Source: Acetobacteraceae bacterium (lineage in GTDB: Bacteria; Pseudomonadota; Alphaproteobacteria; Acetobacterales; Acetobacteraceae). Taken from it: 40,815 nt of DNA. The translations under genes and the position numbers were made by a program. The DNA lies in the NCBI GenBank assembly GCA_019750475.1, contig JAIEOO010000099.1:1-40815 (forward strand). The letters run 5' to 3'. Below are positions 17,995 to 22,718 of this stretch, piece after piece; position 1 is the stretch's first letter; each line of letters opens with the position of its first letter. Under the pieces are notes generated by a model. The model did no database searches and was not told the origin of the DNA. It was given only the letters and a program-made list of their open reading frames with translations.

Positions 17995-19668
17995 ATGGAC
18001 GGAGCCCACATCGCGGGGGGACAGCGGGGGGCGGCCAGCGTGGCCGTCGAAGGCCCGCCCAACCGCGACCACGACACGGAAAACTTCCCCACCGCCTCGC
18101 GCATCCTCGCGCCGGAGGTGCGCGGGAAGGTCATGGCCTTCTACCGCTTCGTCCGCACCGCCGACGACATCGGCGACAGCGCCACCCTGCCGCCGGATGA
18201 GAAGCTCCGCCGCCTCGCCGCCATGCGCGACGCGCTGGACGACCCCGGCACCGCCCTCCCCGAAGCCGCGCGCCTCCACGCCACGGGCACAGGCACGGCC
18301 GAAGCGCGCCTCATGCTCGAAGCCTTCGAGCAGGACGCGCGGAAGAACCGCTACGCCGACTGGGCCGAGCTCGAACACTACTGCGCCCGCAGCGCCGACC
18401 CCGTGGGCCGCATGCTGCTGCGCCTGCACAACGCCGACACGCCCGAAGCGATCGCCGCCGCCGACGACCTCTGCACCGCGCTCCAGATCCTGAACCACCT
18501 GCAGGACCTGGTGCCGGACCGCGACAGCCTCGACCGGATCTACCTGCCCGTGCCGTGGATGGAATTGGCCGGCGGCGAAACGCCCTTCTTCGACCGCGCC
18601 AACACCGAAGCCCGCCGTCCCATCCTCGACGCCGCCCTCGACCGCGTCGAGGAACTGCTCGACCGCGCCGAAGCCCTGCCGCGCCTCATCAACGATCGGA
18701 CCCGCCGCCTCGCCCTCCAGTCGGCGATGACGATCAACTGCGCGCGCCGGCTGCTCGAAAAGCTGCGCGCCGCGGACCCCGTGCTCGGCCGCGTCGCGCT
18801 CGGCAAATCCGACTTCGCCCTCGCCCTCGCCAAGGCCCCGTTGCTCTGCCAGGCCGACGCCCCACTCGTCGCCGCCCGCGTGCGCCGCGCCGGCTCCTCC
18901 TTCGCGCGCGGCATGGCCACCCTGAAGGGGGAACGCCGCCGCGCCCTCTGGGCCGTCTACGCCTTCTGCCGCGCGGTGGACGACATCGCCGACGGCGCGA
19001 TGCCCGAAGCCGAGAAGCGCCGCTTCCTCGCTGATTGGCGCCGGAAGCTCACCCAACCCGACTGCGCCCTCTCCCGCGAACTGCTCCACGCCCGCGAGGC
19101 CTTCGGCGTCCCCCTCGCCGAATGCGAAGCCATGATCGCCGGCATGGAAACCGACGCCGGCGACCGCGTGCGCCTGCAAACCGACGCCGACCTCGACCTC
19201 TACTGCCGCCGCGTCGCCGGCAGCGTCGGCGCCATGTCCGTCCGCATCTTCGGCGCCCCCAAGGCCGAAGCCTGGGGCCTCGAACTCGGCCACACCTTCC
19301 AGCTCACCAACATCCTGCGCGACGTGGACGAGGACGCGACCCGCGACCGCGTCTACATCCCGCGGACCACCCTCGAGGCCAACGGCATCCCCCCCGACGC
19401 CCCCGCGGCCGAGATCGTGCGCCACCCGGCCTTCCCGGGCATCTGCGAGAGCCTCGCCCAACGGGCCCACGCCGGCTTCGCCACCGCCGAAGCCACCATC
19501 CCCACCGCCGACCTGACCGCCCTCAAACCGGCCCGCGTCATGATGTGGGGCTACCGCACCATCCTCGACCTCCTGCTCGCCCGCGGCTGGCGCGGCGCCC
19601 GCCCGCGCGCGCGCCTCAGCACCGGCCAGAAGCTGCGCATGGCCGCCTTCGCCATCACCGGGCGATGA
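17995..19668 (+). CDS. hpnC-hpnD: HpnC-HpnD fusion: bifunctional squalene-pathway synthase
   Basis: 557 residues, about twice a normal trans-prenyltransferase. Residues ~25-275 match HpnC: TENFPTASRILAP, first Asp motif DDIGD at 57-61, and second motif NHLQDLVPD at 167-175 followed by DRIYLP. Residues ~288-557 match HpnD: the SSFARGMATLKGERR start, DDIAD at 329-333, and LTNILRDVDED at 438-447 followed by DRVYIP. HpnD joins two farnesyl diphosphates to presqualene diphosphate, and HpnC converts that to hydroxysqualene. The frame is uninterrupted across the junction (~18830-18860) and both halves keep both Asp motifs, so this looks like a working fusion. HpnE follows. ATG 17995 has no good ribosome site. 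A GTG at 18040 in frame, nearer the domain start, is an alternative. Confidence 0.92.
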   Translation: MDGAHIAGGQRGAASVAVEGPPNRDHDTENFPTASRILAPEVRGKVMAFYRFVRTADDIGDSATLPPDEKLRRLAAMRDALDDPGTALPEAARLHATGTGTAEARLMLEAFEQDARKNRYADWAELEHYCARSADPVGRMLLRLHNADTPEAIAAADDLCTALQILNHLQDLVPDRDSLDRIYLPVPWMELAGGETPFFDRANTEARRPILDAALDRVEELLDRAEALPRLINDRTRRLALQSAMTINCARRLLEKLRAADPVLGRVALGKSDFALALAKAPLLCQADAPLVAARVRRAGSSFARGMATLKGERRRALWAVYAFCRAVDDIADGAMPEAEKRRFLADWRRKLTQPDCALSRELLHAREAFGVPLAECEAMIAGMETDAGDRVRLQTDADLDLYCRRVAGSVGAMSVRIFGAPKAEAWGLELGHTFQLTNILRDVDEDATRDRVYIPRTTLEANGIPPDAPAAEIVRHPAFPGICESLAQRAHAGFATAEATIPTADLTALKPARVMMWGYRTILDLLLARGWRGARPRARLSTGQKLRMAAFAITGR

Positions 19669-19681
19669 CGGTGGTGGTCTT

Positions 19682-19918
19682 CGGTGACCTTGGGGAGGGC
19701 GCTGCCCTCCCCAAACCCCTCCCGCCGGGGAGCCACGGGCTCCCCGGGCCCCTGCGAATCCTTTTGGGAGTTGGGGAGGGGGCGTCGCGGGTGCGCCCGT
19801 CATCAAGGTCGGTCGCCGCCCCCTCCCCAACTCCCAACAAACGGAACCGGAGGTCCAGGAACCTGAGGTTCCTGGCGGAGGGGGTCTGGGGGAGGCAGCG
19901 CCTCCCCCAGGGTGACCG
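19682..19918. repeat. Four-hairpin inverted-repeat element, copy 1
   Basis: A tree-like palindrome. The outer ends pair CGGTGACC (19682) with the complement of GGTGACCG (19918), with one mismatch. Inside are four perfect hairpins with 3-base loops: 19690-19714 (11 bp), 19725-19747 (10 bp), 19855-19875 (9 bp) and 19886-19910 (11 bp). The core is a perfect 21-bp stem, 19764-19784 with 19817-19837, around a 32-base loop. It is a non-coding insertion between hpnC-hpnD and hpnE and ends directly at the hpnE ATG. A second copy lies at 21157-21383. The core loop of both copies holds ATCAAGGTCG in the same orientation. Confidence 0.9.
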
Positions 19919-21139
19919 ATGACCATCCACGTCATTGGCGCCGGTGTAGCGGGGCTCGCCGCGGCGCTCGCTCTGGCGGATGCCGGGCGGCGTGTCGTCG
20001 TGCATGAGGGTTCGCCCGTGGCGGGCGGGCGGTGCCGGGCCTTGCCGGATGGCACGGACAACGGGACGCATGCGCTGATCGGCGCGAATCACGCGGCGCT
20101 GGCGTTCCTGGAGCGGATCGGGGCGCGGTCCGGTTGGGTGGAGCCCGAGCCGGATGGGTTGCCGGTGCTCGATCTGGCGGATGGTTCGGCGCGGCGGGTG
20201 AGCCTGTCGCCGGCGGGCTGGGTGCGGGCCGATCGTCGGCCGGCGGGGGTGTCGCTGCGGGCTGTGCTGGCCCTGATGCGGCTCGCGTTGCCGGGGCGCG
20301 ACGTGCCGGTCGAGACCGCGATGGCGGCCCATCCGGCGTTCCATCGCGGCTTCGTGGACCCGCTGGTCGTGGCGGCGCTGAACACGCCCTCGCGGGAAGC
20401 ATCGTCGCGCCGCCTGGCGCAGGTGCTGCGGCGCCTCGGCGGGCGGGGCGCGACGCGGCTCTTCGTGGCGGAGCGCGGGCTGGGACCCGATCTCGTGCAG
20501 CCGGCGCTCGCGGCGCTGTATCAGCGCGGCGCGGAAATCCTGTTCAACGACCGGCTGCGCCGCGTGCAGCACGAAGGCGGCCGCGTGACGCGGCTGCTCC
20601 TGCACGAGGGCGACATCGCCCTCGGCCCCGAGGATTCGGTGGTGCTGGCGGTTCCGCCCTGGGAGGCGGTGCGGCTCCTCACCCATGTCGAGGCGCCCGA
20701 CCTCCACGCCCCCATCGTGAACCTGCACTTCGAGCGCACAGGCGAAGGCCCGGTCCGCTTCGTCGGAATGCTGGGCGCGCTGTGCCAATGGGTGCTGGTG
20801 CGCCCCTCGGGCGTCGCCGTCACCGTCAGCGCCGGCGACGCCGAAGCCAACGAAGACGTCTCCACCCTCGCGCCCCGCGCCTGGGCGGAAATCCGCCAGG
20901 CCGCCCAGGCCTTCCACCTGCCCGGCAACTGGCCCGAAGCCCCGCCGCCCTGCCGCGCCATCAAGGAAAAACGCGCCACGCCCCGGCACATTCCCGGTCC
21001 CATCCCGAGCCCCAAGCGCCTGCACTTGGCCAACCTGGCCCTCGCCGGCGACTGGACCTTCCCGGGCCTGCCCGCCACGATCGAAGCCAGCATCGCCTCC
21101 GGCCAGGACGCCGCCGCGGCACTGGCGCGAGCCGCGTGA
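19919..21139 (+). CDS. hpnE: Hydroxysqualene dehydroxylase HpnE
   Basis: 406 residues, FAD-dependent amine-oxidase fold, the third enzyme of the HpnC/D/E squalene route, which reduces hydroxysqualene to squalene. GAGVAG is at 7-12, with AGGRCRAL near residue 35 and DNGTHALIGAN near 47. The C-terminal LALAGDWTFPGLPATIEASIASG motif is typical of HpnE. The ATG follows the last base of repeat copy 1, so its ribosome site, if any, is the GGTGA at 19911-19915 beside a strong hairpin. Codon use changes inside the gene: roughly the first 220 codons favour G-ending codons, and the last third favours C-ending codons like those of hpnC-hpnD. A second repeat copy follows within 20 bases of the stop. Confidence 0.92.
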   Translation: MTIHVIGAGVAGLAAALALADAGRRVVVHEGSPVAGGRCRALPDGTDNGTHALIGANHAALAFLERIGARSGWVEPEPDGLPVLDLADGSARRVSLSPAGWVRADRRPAGVSLRAVLALMRLALPGRDVPVETAMAAHPAFHRGFVDPLVVAALNTPSREASSRRLAQVLRRLGGRGATRLFVAERGLGPDLVQPALAALYQRGAEILFNDRLRRVQHEGGRVTRLLLHEGDIALGPEDSVVLAVPPWEAVRLLTHVEAPDLHAPIVNLHFERTGEGPVRFVGMLGALCQWVLVRPSGVAVTVSAGDAEANEDVSTLAPRAWAEIRQAAQAFHLPGNWPEAPPPCRAIKEKRATPRHIPGPIPSPKRLHLANLALAGDWTFPGLPATIEASIASGQDAAAALARAA

Positions 21140-21156
21140 TGAGGGTGGGCGCTGGT

Positions 21157-21383
21157 GTTGTTGGGAGGGGCGCTGCCCCTCCCGGACCCTCCCCGCCAGG
21201 GGGCACGGCCCCCTGGACCCACGGATCGTCTGTTGGGGATTGGGAAGGGGGCGGCGTGCTCCCTCGATCAAGGTCGCTCCTGTGATGCCCCCTCCCCAAT
21301 CCCCAAAGGGTTCGCAGGGGTCCGGGGAGCCCGTGGCTCCCCGGCGGGAGGGGTCTGGGGAGGGCGGAGCCCTCCCCAGCAGC
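21157..21383. repeat. Four-hairpin inverted-repeat element, copy 2
   Basis: The same architecture as the copy at 19682. There are four perfect hairpins with 3-base loops at 21163-21183 (9 bp), 21196-21216 (9 bp), 21322-21344 (10 bp) and 21355-21379 (11 bp). The core stem is 21233-21252 with 21287-21306 (19 of 20 pairs). Where the two copies differ in sequence, both sides of each stem have changed together, so the fold is kept. The right half is nearly identical to the complement of the left half of copy 1. The right half also runs into the aldehyde dehydrogenase reading frame and provides its only plausible ATG (21285). Confidence 0.9.
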
Positions 21384-22718
21384 GCCGCGCCCACTCCCAT
21401 CGCGGCTCTTGCCGCGCTGCGGGCGGCTTCTGACCGCGAGGGTGTGTTGTCGCTCGGCCGGCGGCGGGAGTTGCTGCGGGCCTTGGATCGCGTGTTGGTG
21501 GCGCGGGCCGAGGATGTGGTGGCGGCTGCGGCGGCGGATTTCGGGGCGCGCAGTGTGGAGGACACGCTGCTCGCCGATGTGGTGCTGGTGTTGGATGCGG
21601 CGCGCTATGCCCGGCGGAAGTTGCGCGAGTGGGCGCGGCCGCGTCGGGCGCCGGTGCCGTTTCCGTTCCAGCCGGCGCGCGCGGTGTTGGAGCCTGTGCC
21701 GAAGGGTGTGGTCGGTGTGATGGCGCCCTGGAATTATCCCTTCCAGTTGGCGTTGTTGCCGGCGGTGGATGCGGTGGCGGCGGGCAACCGCGTCGCGTTC
21801 AAGCCGAGCGAGGCGACGCCGCGTTGTTCGGCCTTGCTGGCGGAGATCGTGGCGGAGGCGTGGGGGCCTGAGGTTGGGCTGGTGGTGCAGGGTGGGCCGG
21901 AGGTGGCGCGGGAGTTTGCCGCGCAGCCTTGGGACCATCTGGCGTTCACCGGCGGGACCGAGACCGGGCGCAAGGTGATGGCGGCGGCGGCCGCGAACTT
22001 GACGCCTCTGACGCTGGAGCTGGGTGGGAAGTGCCCCGCGGTGGTCCTGCCGGGGGCGGATCTGCGTCGCGCGGCGCGGGACATCTTGGCGGCGAAGTTC
22101 GTGAATGCCGGGCAGACCTGCGTGGCGCCGGACACGGTGATCCTCGTCGGGCATGACCAGCTGGCGTTCCATGCGGCGTGTCGGGAGAGTGGGATCACCG
22201 GCACTGAGACGGCGGTGATCAACGCGGCGCAGCAGGCGCGGCTCGATCGCATCACGGCGGGCGTGACGATGGAGGCGCTGGGGCCGGAGCGGTTTCCGCT
22301 GAAGCTCGCGACGGCGAACGGGCCGCTGGCGGAGGAGGAGATCTTCGGCCCGGTGCTGGCGGTGGAGTGCGTGGCGCGGCTCGAGGAGGCGGTGGCGTGG
22401 ATCAACGCGCGGCCGGCGCCGCTCGCGATCTATCTGTTCGGTGCGACGCGGGCGGAGGAGGCGGCGGTGGCGGCTTCGACGAAGTCGGGTGCGCTGGTCT
22501 GCGACAAGGCGCTCGACCACGCGGCCTTCTTCGGGATGGCCTTCGGCGGGGTGGGCGCCAGTGGCTTCGGCCGCCGCAACGGCGAATGGGGTTTCCTGGA
22601 GTTCAGCCAGTTGCGCGCGCGGGTGCGGCACGGGCGCTGGAGCCTGGCGGGCCTGTTCGCGCCGCCGCGCAGCAGCTTCGCGAGGAAGCTGGCGCGGCGG
22701 CTGGCGGGCCTGCGATAG
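21285..22718 (+). CDS. Aldehyde dehydrogenase (coniferyl-aldehyde/CrtNc-like), carotenoid cluster
   Basis: 477 residues from the ATG at 21285, of which about the first 33 (Pro/Gly/Ser-rich) come from repeat copy 2. The conserved domain begins near residue 38. Catalytic elements are present: PWNYPF with N150, E245 in LELGGK, and C279 in NAGQTCVAPD. EEIFGPVLAV follows near 351, and the C-terminal FGGVGASGFGRR is conserved. The segment from C279 to EEIFGP is about 20 residues shorter than in usual members. NAD(P)-dependent oxidation of a C30 carotenoid aldehyde to the acid is the likely job, inferred from the two CrtN-type enzymes upstream. Codons are markedly G-ending, unlike the C-ending hpnC-hpnD. 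Initiation at a GTG inside the repeat (21333) is the alternative. Confidence 0.82.
   Translation: MPPPQSPKGSQGSGEPVAPRREGSGEGGALPSSAAPTPIAALAALRAASDREGVLSLGRRRELLRALDRVLVARAEDVVAAAAADFGARSVEDTLLADVVLVLDAARYARRKLREWARPRRAPVPFPFQPARAVLEPVPKGVVGVMAPWNYPFQLALLPAVDAVAAGNRVAFKPSEATPRCSALLAEIVAEAWGPEVGLVVQGGPEVAREFAAQPWDHLAFTGGTETGRKVMAAAAANLTPLTLELGGKCPAVVLPGADLRRAARDILAAKFVNAGQTCVAPDTVILVGHDQLAFHAACRESGITGTETAVINAAQQARLDRITAGVTMEALGPERFPLKLATANGPLAEEEIFGPVLAVECVARLEEAVAWINARPAPLAIYLFGATRAEEAAVAASTKSGALVCDKALDHAAFFGMAFGGVGASGFGRRNGEWGFLEFSQLRARVRHGRWSLAGLFAPPRSSFARKLARRLAGLR

Follow-up and report, generated by a model that had tools for sequence, protein, structure and literature searches.

Gene-end repeats of the Acetobacteraceae with predicted tandem triplex hairpins whose three segments vary in register

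The window, by which we mean the whole stretch of 40,815 nucleotides that was analysed, comes from a member of the Acetobacteraceae near Roseococcus, Rubritepida and Sabulicella. In it, an hpnE-like gene is bracketed by paired inverted-repeat elements of about 220 bp each, placed in opposite orientation at 19690-19910 and 21161-21379. These are the limits of the elements proper; the span of the original prediction, 19682-21383, comprises both elements and hpnE. Both follow one plan: outer hairpin, linker, inner hairpin, linker, then a core stem, then the same series inverted. Each copy thus has two hairpins per side around its core stem, with hairpin loops of 3 bases. The features are as follows.

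19690-19910, unstranded: element copy 1, between the hpnD-like gene and hpnE
19690-19714, plus strand: copy 1 outer hairpin (hp1), stem G4AG3C, loop GCT
19716-19723, plus strand: copy 1 left putative third strand, CCCCTCCC, mirroring the right arm of hp1; spacer 19713-19715
19725-19747, plus strand: copy 1 inner hairpin (hp2), loop ACG
19748-19753, plus strand: copy 1 short putative third-strand stretch, 3' of hp2, from the inner-hairpin rule (see below) and direct reading
19764-19837, unstranded: copy 1 core palindrome, 21-bp arms 19764-19784 and 19817-19837, from the fold and direct reading
19855-19875, minus strand: copy 1 right-end inner hairpin, loop TGA
19877-19884, minus strand: copy 1 right putative third strand, GGAGGGGG on the plus strand, mirroring the last hairpin
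19886-19910, minus strand: copy 1 right-end outer hairpin, stem G5AG2C
19919-21139, plus strand: hpnE-like gene, matching Pfam flavin amine oxidoreductase; the name hpnE is that of the original prediction
21161-21379, unstranded: element copy 2, in opposite orientation, between hpnE and the aldehyde dehydrogenase gene
21163-21183, plus strand: copy 2 outer hairpin, stem G3AG4C, loop GCT
21187-21194, plus strand: copy 2 putative third strand, CCCTCCCC
21196-21216, plus strand: copy 2 inner hairpin, loop ACG
21233-21306, unstranded: copy 2 core palindrome, arms 21233-21252 and 21287-21306, one A.C mismatch, from direct reading
21322-21344, minus strand: copy 2 other-end inner hairpin, loop CGT
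21346-21353, minus strand: copy 2 other-end putative third strand, GGGAGGGG on the plus strand
21355-21379, minus strand: copy 2 other-end outer hairpin, stem G4AG3C
21285-22718, plus strand: aldehyde dehydrogenase open reading frame (ORF); in-frame ATG at 21285 and GTG at 21333 upstream of the conserved N-terminus, both inside copy 2

Folded as DNA, copy 1 reached -93.4 kcal/mol, with a z-score of -9.5 relative to dinucleotide shuffles (0 of 200 as good); folded as RNA, copy 2 had a z-score of -7.8 (again 0 of 200). The sequence and these comparisons bear out the two four-hairpin elements, with hairpins, core stems and 3-base loops as first described. The mirrored loop triplets (GCT with AGC) are also present, but they reflect the same kind of hairpin seen from the inverted end. 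Among the 31 Rfam matches listed within 19400-21700, none reached the gathering score.

The genes around the elements were then considered. The conserved N-terminus of the dehydrogenase, PTPIAALAALRAA, has no adjoining ATG, GTG or TTG, and the in-frame ATG and GTG sit in copy 2. It thus appears that copy 2 displaced the start of the downstream gene and now provides its start codon, a point that the original prediction had missed; at 21285-21400, the dehydrogenase seems to draw from copy 2 this codon and up to about 32 residues, a situation that resembles palindromic elements captured in reading frames. On the other side, the squalene/phytoene synthase match at 17995-19668 consists of two stretches of a single ORF of 557 amino acids, and hpnC and hpnD may therefore be fused. 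Several relatives have nothing between hpnD and hpnE, which overlap as ATGA (for example L054, L068, L069, L091, L092 and L097). Among 80 hpnE loci, some of which end at contig ends, a search with the model R1 (described below) found elements in the gap between hpnE and the aldehyde dehydrogenase gene at four (L032, L036, L068 and L092), and upstream of hpnE at two (L104, and L061 with one end only). Element presence at both junctions thus differs among genera.

Matching one copy against its own genome gave 77 matches, with many copies found in both orientations. A covariance model of one element end, R1, was built from aligned ends of this genome. It detected 97 ends there: 30 paired elements of 146 to 223 bp, and 37 single ends, several of them at contig ends. 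In a sample of the family, 86 of 200 genomes had R1 matches (the present genome included), and these fell in 49 of 102 genera. In a sample of the order, the 50 positive genomes out of 150 were all Acetobacteraceae, and in a class-wide sample only 4 of 288 genomes other than the present one gave a match, one weak match apiece. On plasmids, two weak partial matches were obtained, in Pseudoroseomonas. One of the four class-wide matches (L190, 1500-1560), from another family of the same class, is a single two-hairpin end that by eye fits the mirror rule described below; judging from this sequence, the two-hairpin unit may be older than the four-hairpin element.

The location of elements was assessed by hand on a crude gene call (ORF and GC3), for 26 elements of the present genome and 17 of a trio of Roseococcus-like genomes at about 93% identity. 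Of these 43, 37 either overlap a gene 3' end (two cases) or are at most 40 nt away from one; the neighbouring genes are convergent for 17 elements, codirectional for 23 and divergent for 3. Outside hp1, about nine positions are moderately conserved in 52 flanks of the present genome (up to 1.4 bits at the first base, 0.8 to 1.2 bits at four others, and less farther out). The original prediction of a multicopy, non-coding family of nested palindromes, REP/BIME-like in its placement, with copies to be found by a covariance model and a possible preference for 3' ends, agrees with these counts.

It had further been claimed that stem sequences differ while pairing stays perfect, and that this covariation says the folded shape is what is kept. 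We analysed 49 end sequences of the present genome (47 distinct) against 500 shuffles. Paired cells amounted to 99.0%, compared to 88.7% in shuffles, and the covariation score was 0.383, compared to 0.177 (0 of 500 as high in both cases); both values also exceeded those of all slid versions of the alignment. Pairs with a double change were not in excess (10 compared to 8.6, matched by 88 of 500 shuffles), nor were further pair types (16 compared to 19.4, matched by 500 of 500). The stems thus covary and are not fixed, and the compensating changes are real, but pairing is not always perfect: outer-hairpin cells are 98.3% paired, and the core of copy 2 has its A.C mismatch.

According to the parts of PMC8794818 and PMC8604942 available, template switching between inverted repeats can introduce compensating changes, make arms alike and flip spacers. 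In the trio, 6 of 16 shared sites show an in-place inversion of the whole element or of its inner part between one genome and another (L210/L227, L215/L230, L217/L226, L221/L224, L225/L246 and L237/L253), the reversed match being 76 to 87% in these pairs, compared to 68 to 75% elsewhere. At one of the sites (L209), one end now resembles the opposite end, apparently rewritten by arm-to-arm copying. Some orthologous copies (L216 and L232) decay without compensating changes. At another site (L235, genome G044), the element has been cleanly deleted between the inner hairpins, with loss of the core and parts of the inner arms. Because template switching can produce stem covariation, and because inversions and one arm copy are seen among orthologues, stem covariation by itself does not prove selection for shape here. 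The inference of a conserved fold from compensating changes alone was therefore insufficient, and more generally stem covariation alone cannot be read as selection where template switching is active.

A further constraint, which the original prediction had missed, concerns the linker, and it is this mirror-image constraint, not the stem changes, that points to a selected shape. Inward of each outer hairpin, the linker is a mirror image of the hairpin arm, with C opposite G, and T or A opposite A. Outer stems in the aligned ends of the present genome have the form G(n)AG(m)C, where (n,m) is (4,3), (3,4), (5,2) or (2,5), except for one stem with two A's; their linkers have the form C(n)TC(m), a few single substitutions aside. 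Examples of arms with their linkers are GGGGAAGG with CCCCATCC, GAGGAGGG with CTCCACCC, GGAGAGGG with CCTCACCC, and GGGGAGGA with CCCCACCT; ends lacking any A also exist (L009 and L016).

The rule was quantified on ends gathered with a model that was built from the ends of the present genome and that scores arm and linker columns independently. The 229 ends entered were 93 hits of at least 35 bits among 125 listed (29 weaker and 3 overlapping hits being omitted), 87 of 89 further hits (two repeated sites omitted), and 49 ends of the present genome. From these, 28 were dropped (2 without a hairpin, 13 with a loop other than 3 bases, 10 with a tract shorter than 5, and 3 duplicates), as were 2 more without A. 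With a fixed spacer of 3 nt, 157 of the remaining 199 ends obeyed the rule perfectly, and mean agreement was 0.934, across 47 genome labels that mix genome handles and named records, so that a few may be one genome. When these hairpins were read outward with an equal spacer, no end was perfect (0/199) and agreement was 0.456; other inward spacings gave at most 10 perfect ends of 199, and an antiparallel reading gave 20 of 199. There were 36 distinct arm patterns, 26 of which had at least one perfect linker. Sixteen of the 42 imperfect ends belong to patterns that never fit, most of which have an outer A that leaves the limit of the stem uncertain.

Arm and linker were next permuted relative to each other; these permutations ignore relatedness, and since ends share ancestry, independent events are fewer than 199. 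For the 47 distinct pairs of length 8, agreement was 0.878, compared to 0.672 +/- 0.020 after permutation (0 of 5000 as high). The effect was weaker at length 7 (24/5000, 15 pairs) and at length 9 (277/5000, 5 pairs), and it was not significant at length 6 (2271/5000, 6 pairs). An earlier count on 132 ends, superseded by the set of 199, had given 0.928 compared to 0.700 for 40 distinct pairs (0/10000). Opposite G, the linker has C in 1197 of 1258 cases; opposite A (n = 261), it has T in 170, A in 53, C in 33 and G in 5. The base that follows the linker also matches the middle base of the loop: among the 174 ends with linker agreement of at least 85%, the combination is C-G in 160, T-A in 9 (from 8 genome labels) and another in 5. 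This match would put the end of the third strand at the hairpin loop, as expected of a triplex.

Inner hairpins follow a shorter version of the rule. Over their first six positions, agreement was 0.815 for 81 distinct cases, compared to 0.610 +/- 0.020 permuted (0/5000), and of 116 distinct cases of A at the first three positions, 109 have A opposite. Beyond about four bases the rule weakens; at the fifth, A faces C in 16 of 18 distinct pairs. Each end is thus made of two tandem hairpins, each with a putative third-strand segment on its inner side, long after the outer hairpin and short after the inner one. Along the G-rich strand, the putative third strand comes first, then the purine arm and then the pyrimidine arm, as in an intrastrand DNA triplex of class I (purine motif, reverse-Hoogsteen). 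This order, with short loops and with the triplets G.GC, A.AT and T.AT, which the available text of PMC4666352 names for the purine motif, is seen in the 157 of 199 ends that are perfect at spacing 3. Because A and T opposite A are both purine-motif triplets, this motif on the G-rich strand fits the linkers, whereas a pyrimidine motif read on the C-rich strand would not tolerate A at these positions. Because reverse-complement copying cannot make mirror repeats, the mirror rule, in contrast to stem pairing, points to selection or to a fold-dependent process.

The two ends of an element are rarely alike. Both ends were obtained from 25 of 25 elements of the present genome, 8 of 16 of the trio and 28 of 29 others; among these 61, only L209, the apparent conversion, carries the same arm at both ends, while random pairing expects about 7. 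The deficit was significant only in the present genome (0/25, reached by 29 of 5000 permutations); it was not in other genomes (0/28, 689 of 5000), and the trio showed none (1/8). Similarly, all five inverted TM_ECO pairs of E. coli MG1655 combine two types, according to the part of PMC4666352 available. It is plausible that unlike ends avoid a perfect palindrome.

Signs of mobility were sought in the same data. None of the 20 family-bearing genomes searched had a match to Y1_Tnp (PF01797); the control search was positive in 5 of 14 named genomes. Of the 18 element sites compared in the trio, 11 are occupied in all three genomes, 5 in two and 2 in one. Among the sites and junctions examined (hpnE junctions and trio), no clean empty site with target duplication was found. 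One candidate empty site, the L214 site in G124, contains a remnant hairpin and looks like a deletion. A possible target duplication at copy 1, where the left flank resembles a second start of hpnE, is not claimed: the junctions are strongly diverged, and this possible repeat of the hpnE start sequence, seen at copy 1 only, is not found at the other junctions read. At L245 (1146-1356, G124), an element stands at the junction of a stretch of about 19 to 20 kb that is present in G202 and G044 and missing in G124. From the lack of Y1_Tnp matches and of clean empty sites, we infer that the spread of the family is slow or old. The idea of a mobile element, put forward in the original prediction, is therefore weakly favoured by the variable presence at the two hpnE junctions between genera, while the common trio sites and the results on empty sites and RAYT-type transposases weigh against it.

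Taken together, these elements are probably non-autonomous, REP-like gene-end repeats, found almost only in Acetobacteraceae directly behind stop codons, with conserved tandem hairpins that are predicted to form triplexes. Dispersed palindromes, inverted pairs and placement at gene ends would also be compatible with REP/BIME elements mobilised by a RAYT, but given the 20 genomes negative for Y1_Tnp and the 11 of 18 sites common to all three species compared, this is very improbable. Could the covariation be wholly mutational, template switching and arm-to-arm copying having written compensating changes with no fold selected? The mechanism is published (PMC8794818 and PMC8604942, as far as available), the six in-place inversions among 16 orthologous sites and the arm conversion illustrate it, and it accounts for the stems. 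It gives reverse complements, however, not mirror images, so that a process copying mirror repeats would have to be added, and neither T nor A at the mirror position is expected from copying; we regard this explanation as unlikely.

An RNA element deserves more weight, although we still consider it the less likely reading. The transcript of the upstream gene would fold behind its stop codon and stabilise or terminate the mRNA, and the mirror rule would describe an RNA triplex of the pyrimidine motif (C+.GC, U.AU). The proximity of 37 of 43 elements to gene 3' ends, on the crude gene call, agrees with this, as do the 17 placed between convergent genes, where either transcript meets a hairpin and then a C-rich linker. 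A opposite A is nevertheless frequent (53 of 261 at hp1, and the 109 of 116 at hp2), and it is not among the triplets of the pyrimidine motif as described in the available text of PMC4666352; runs of C+ moreover favour acid conditions. Finally, the G-rich strand (G-run, A, G-run, spacer, G-run, A, G-run) might form a G-quadruplex. Ends of the (4,3) and (3,4) classes do have four G-runs of at least three, and the same competition was noted by the TM_ECO authors (PMC4666352, in the part available). The classes G5AG2, G2AGAG3 and G4AAG2 do not have four runs of three, and a quadruplex requires no mirror register, Watson-Crick arm or loop base match, which makes this reading more doubtful still than a purely mutational origin.

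Returning to DNA triplex hairpins, the mirror rule suggests the following course of events. Each G-rich end would fold into tandem triplex hairpins on single-stranded DNA at the replication fork. The fold could stall the polymerase and so cause template switching within the palindrome, which would homogenise arms and invert the core; this outcome is the one seen in the trio orthologues. The triplex may be kept up by some use that is made of it, or by the better persistence of ends that retain it; as for placement, gene ends may be where copies are least harmful, or copies may benefit 3' ends. A more far-reaching proposal, which we advance tentatively and hold somewhat less probable than its negation, is that a DNA triple helix is under natural selection in bacteria: arm, complementary arm and third strand would be kept in register over at least 26 arm patterns (199 ends), and the three-stranded hairpin would probably be recognised by, or stall, a replication or recombination protein that propagates the repeat. 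Searches of the open-access literature on such elements gave nothing specific, the available part of PMC2680597 describes no such element, and no report of a three-strand covariation of this kind was found there.

Comparison with known systems places the family between several of them. Like MITEs, it has inverted ends and no coding content, but no parent transposon or target-site duplication was found, in a search that covered some of the transposase families. Like REPs, BIMEs, and GTAG- and CGTC-tagged palindromes, it is made of short palindromic repeats lying mostly downstream of coding regions (PMC3733652, in the part available, where CGTC repeats are also stated to be missing in Acetobacteraceae); unlike REP/BIME, it is without a Y1/RAYT gene in the 20 genomes searched, and its nested structure is much larger. 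With H-DNA, it has in common a homopurine-homopyrimidine mirror repeat (PMC4666352, same part), but here an inverted repeat adjoins the mirror repeat, so that one strand alone can fold.

The nearest known relatives are the BoxC/PIT/TM_ECO intrastrand triplex motifs of E. coli (Holder 2015, PMC4666352, of which a part was available for all that follows). Common to both are a G/C-rich three-segment purine-motif layout, 9-nt stems and short loops, a dispersed and intergenic distribution with no transposase seen nearby, and the occurrence, sometimes, of inverted pairs whose two members differ in type. For a related E. coli motif, CD and NMR demonstrated a triplex in vitro, to which the authors ascribed a primer-extension stop; in vivo, DMS footprinting of the analogous motif did not reveal a stable triplex. 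In TM_ECO the pyrimidine arm comes first (class II), the sequence is highly uniform, and the motif is found upstream of genes more often than downstream. By eye, its pattern with BoxC, CCCTCNCCC...GGGNGAGGG...GGGNGAGGG in class II order, differs from the present elements in both order and sequence. The Acetobacteraceae family is class I on the G-rich strand (class III on the other), lies just after stop codons, and has two putative triplex units per end around a long palindromic core. On whether intrastrand DNA triplexes matter in living bacteria, the high uniformity of the E. coli motif leaves little covariation to judge from. The present family varies, all three strands together, so that nature itself provides matched and mismatched sequences and a comparison by which DNA triplex function can be tested.
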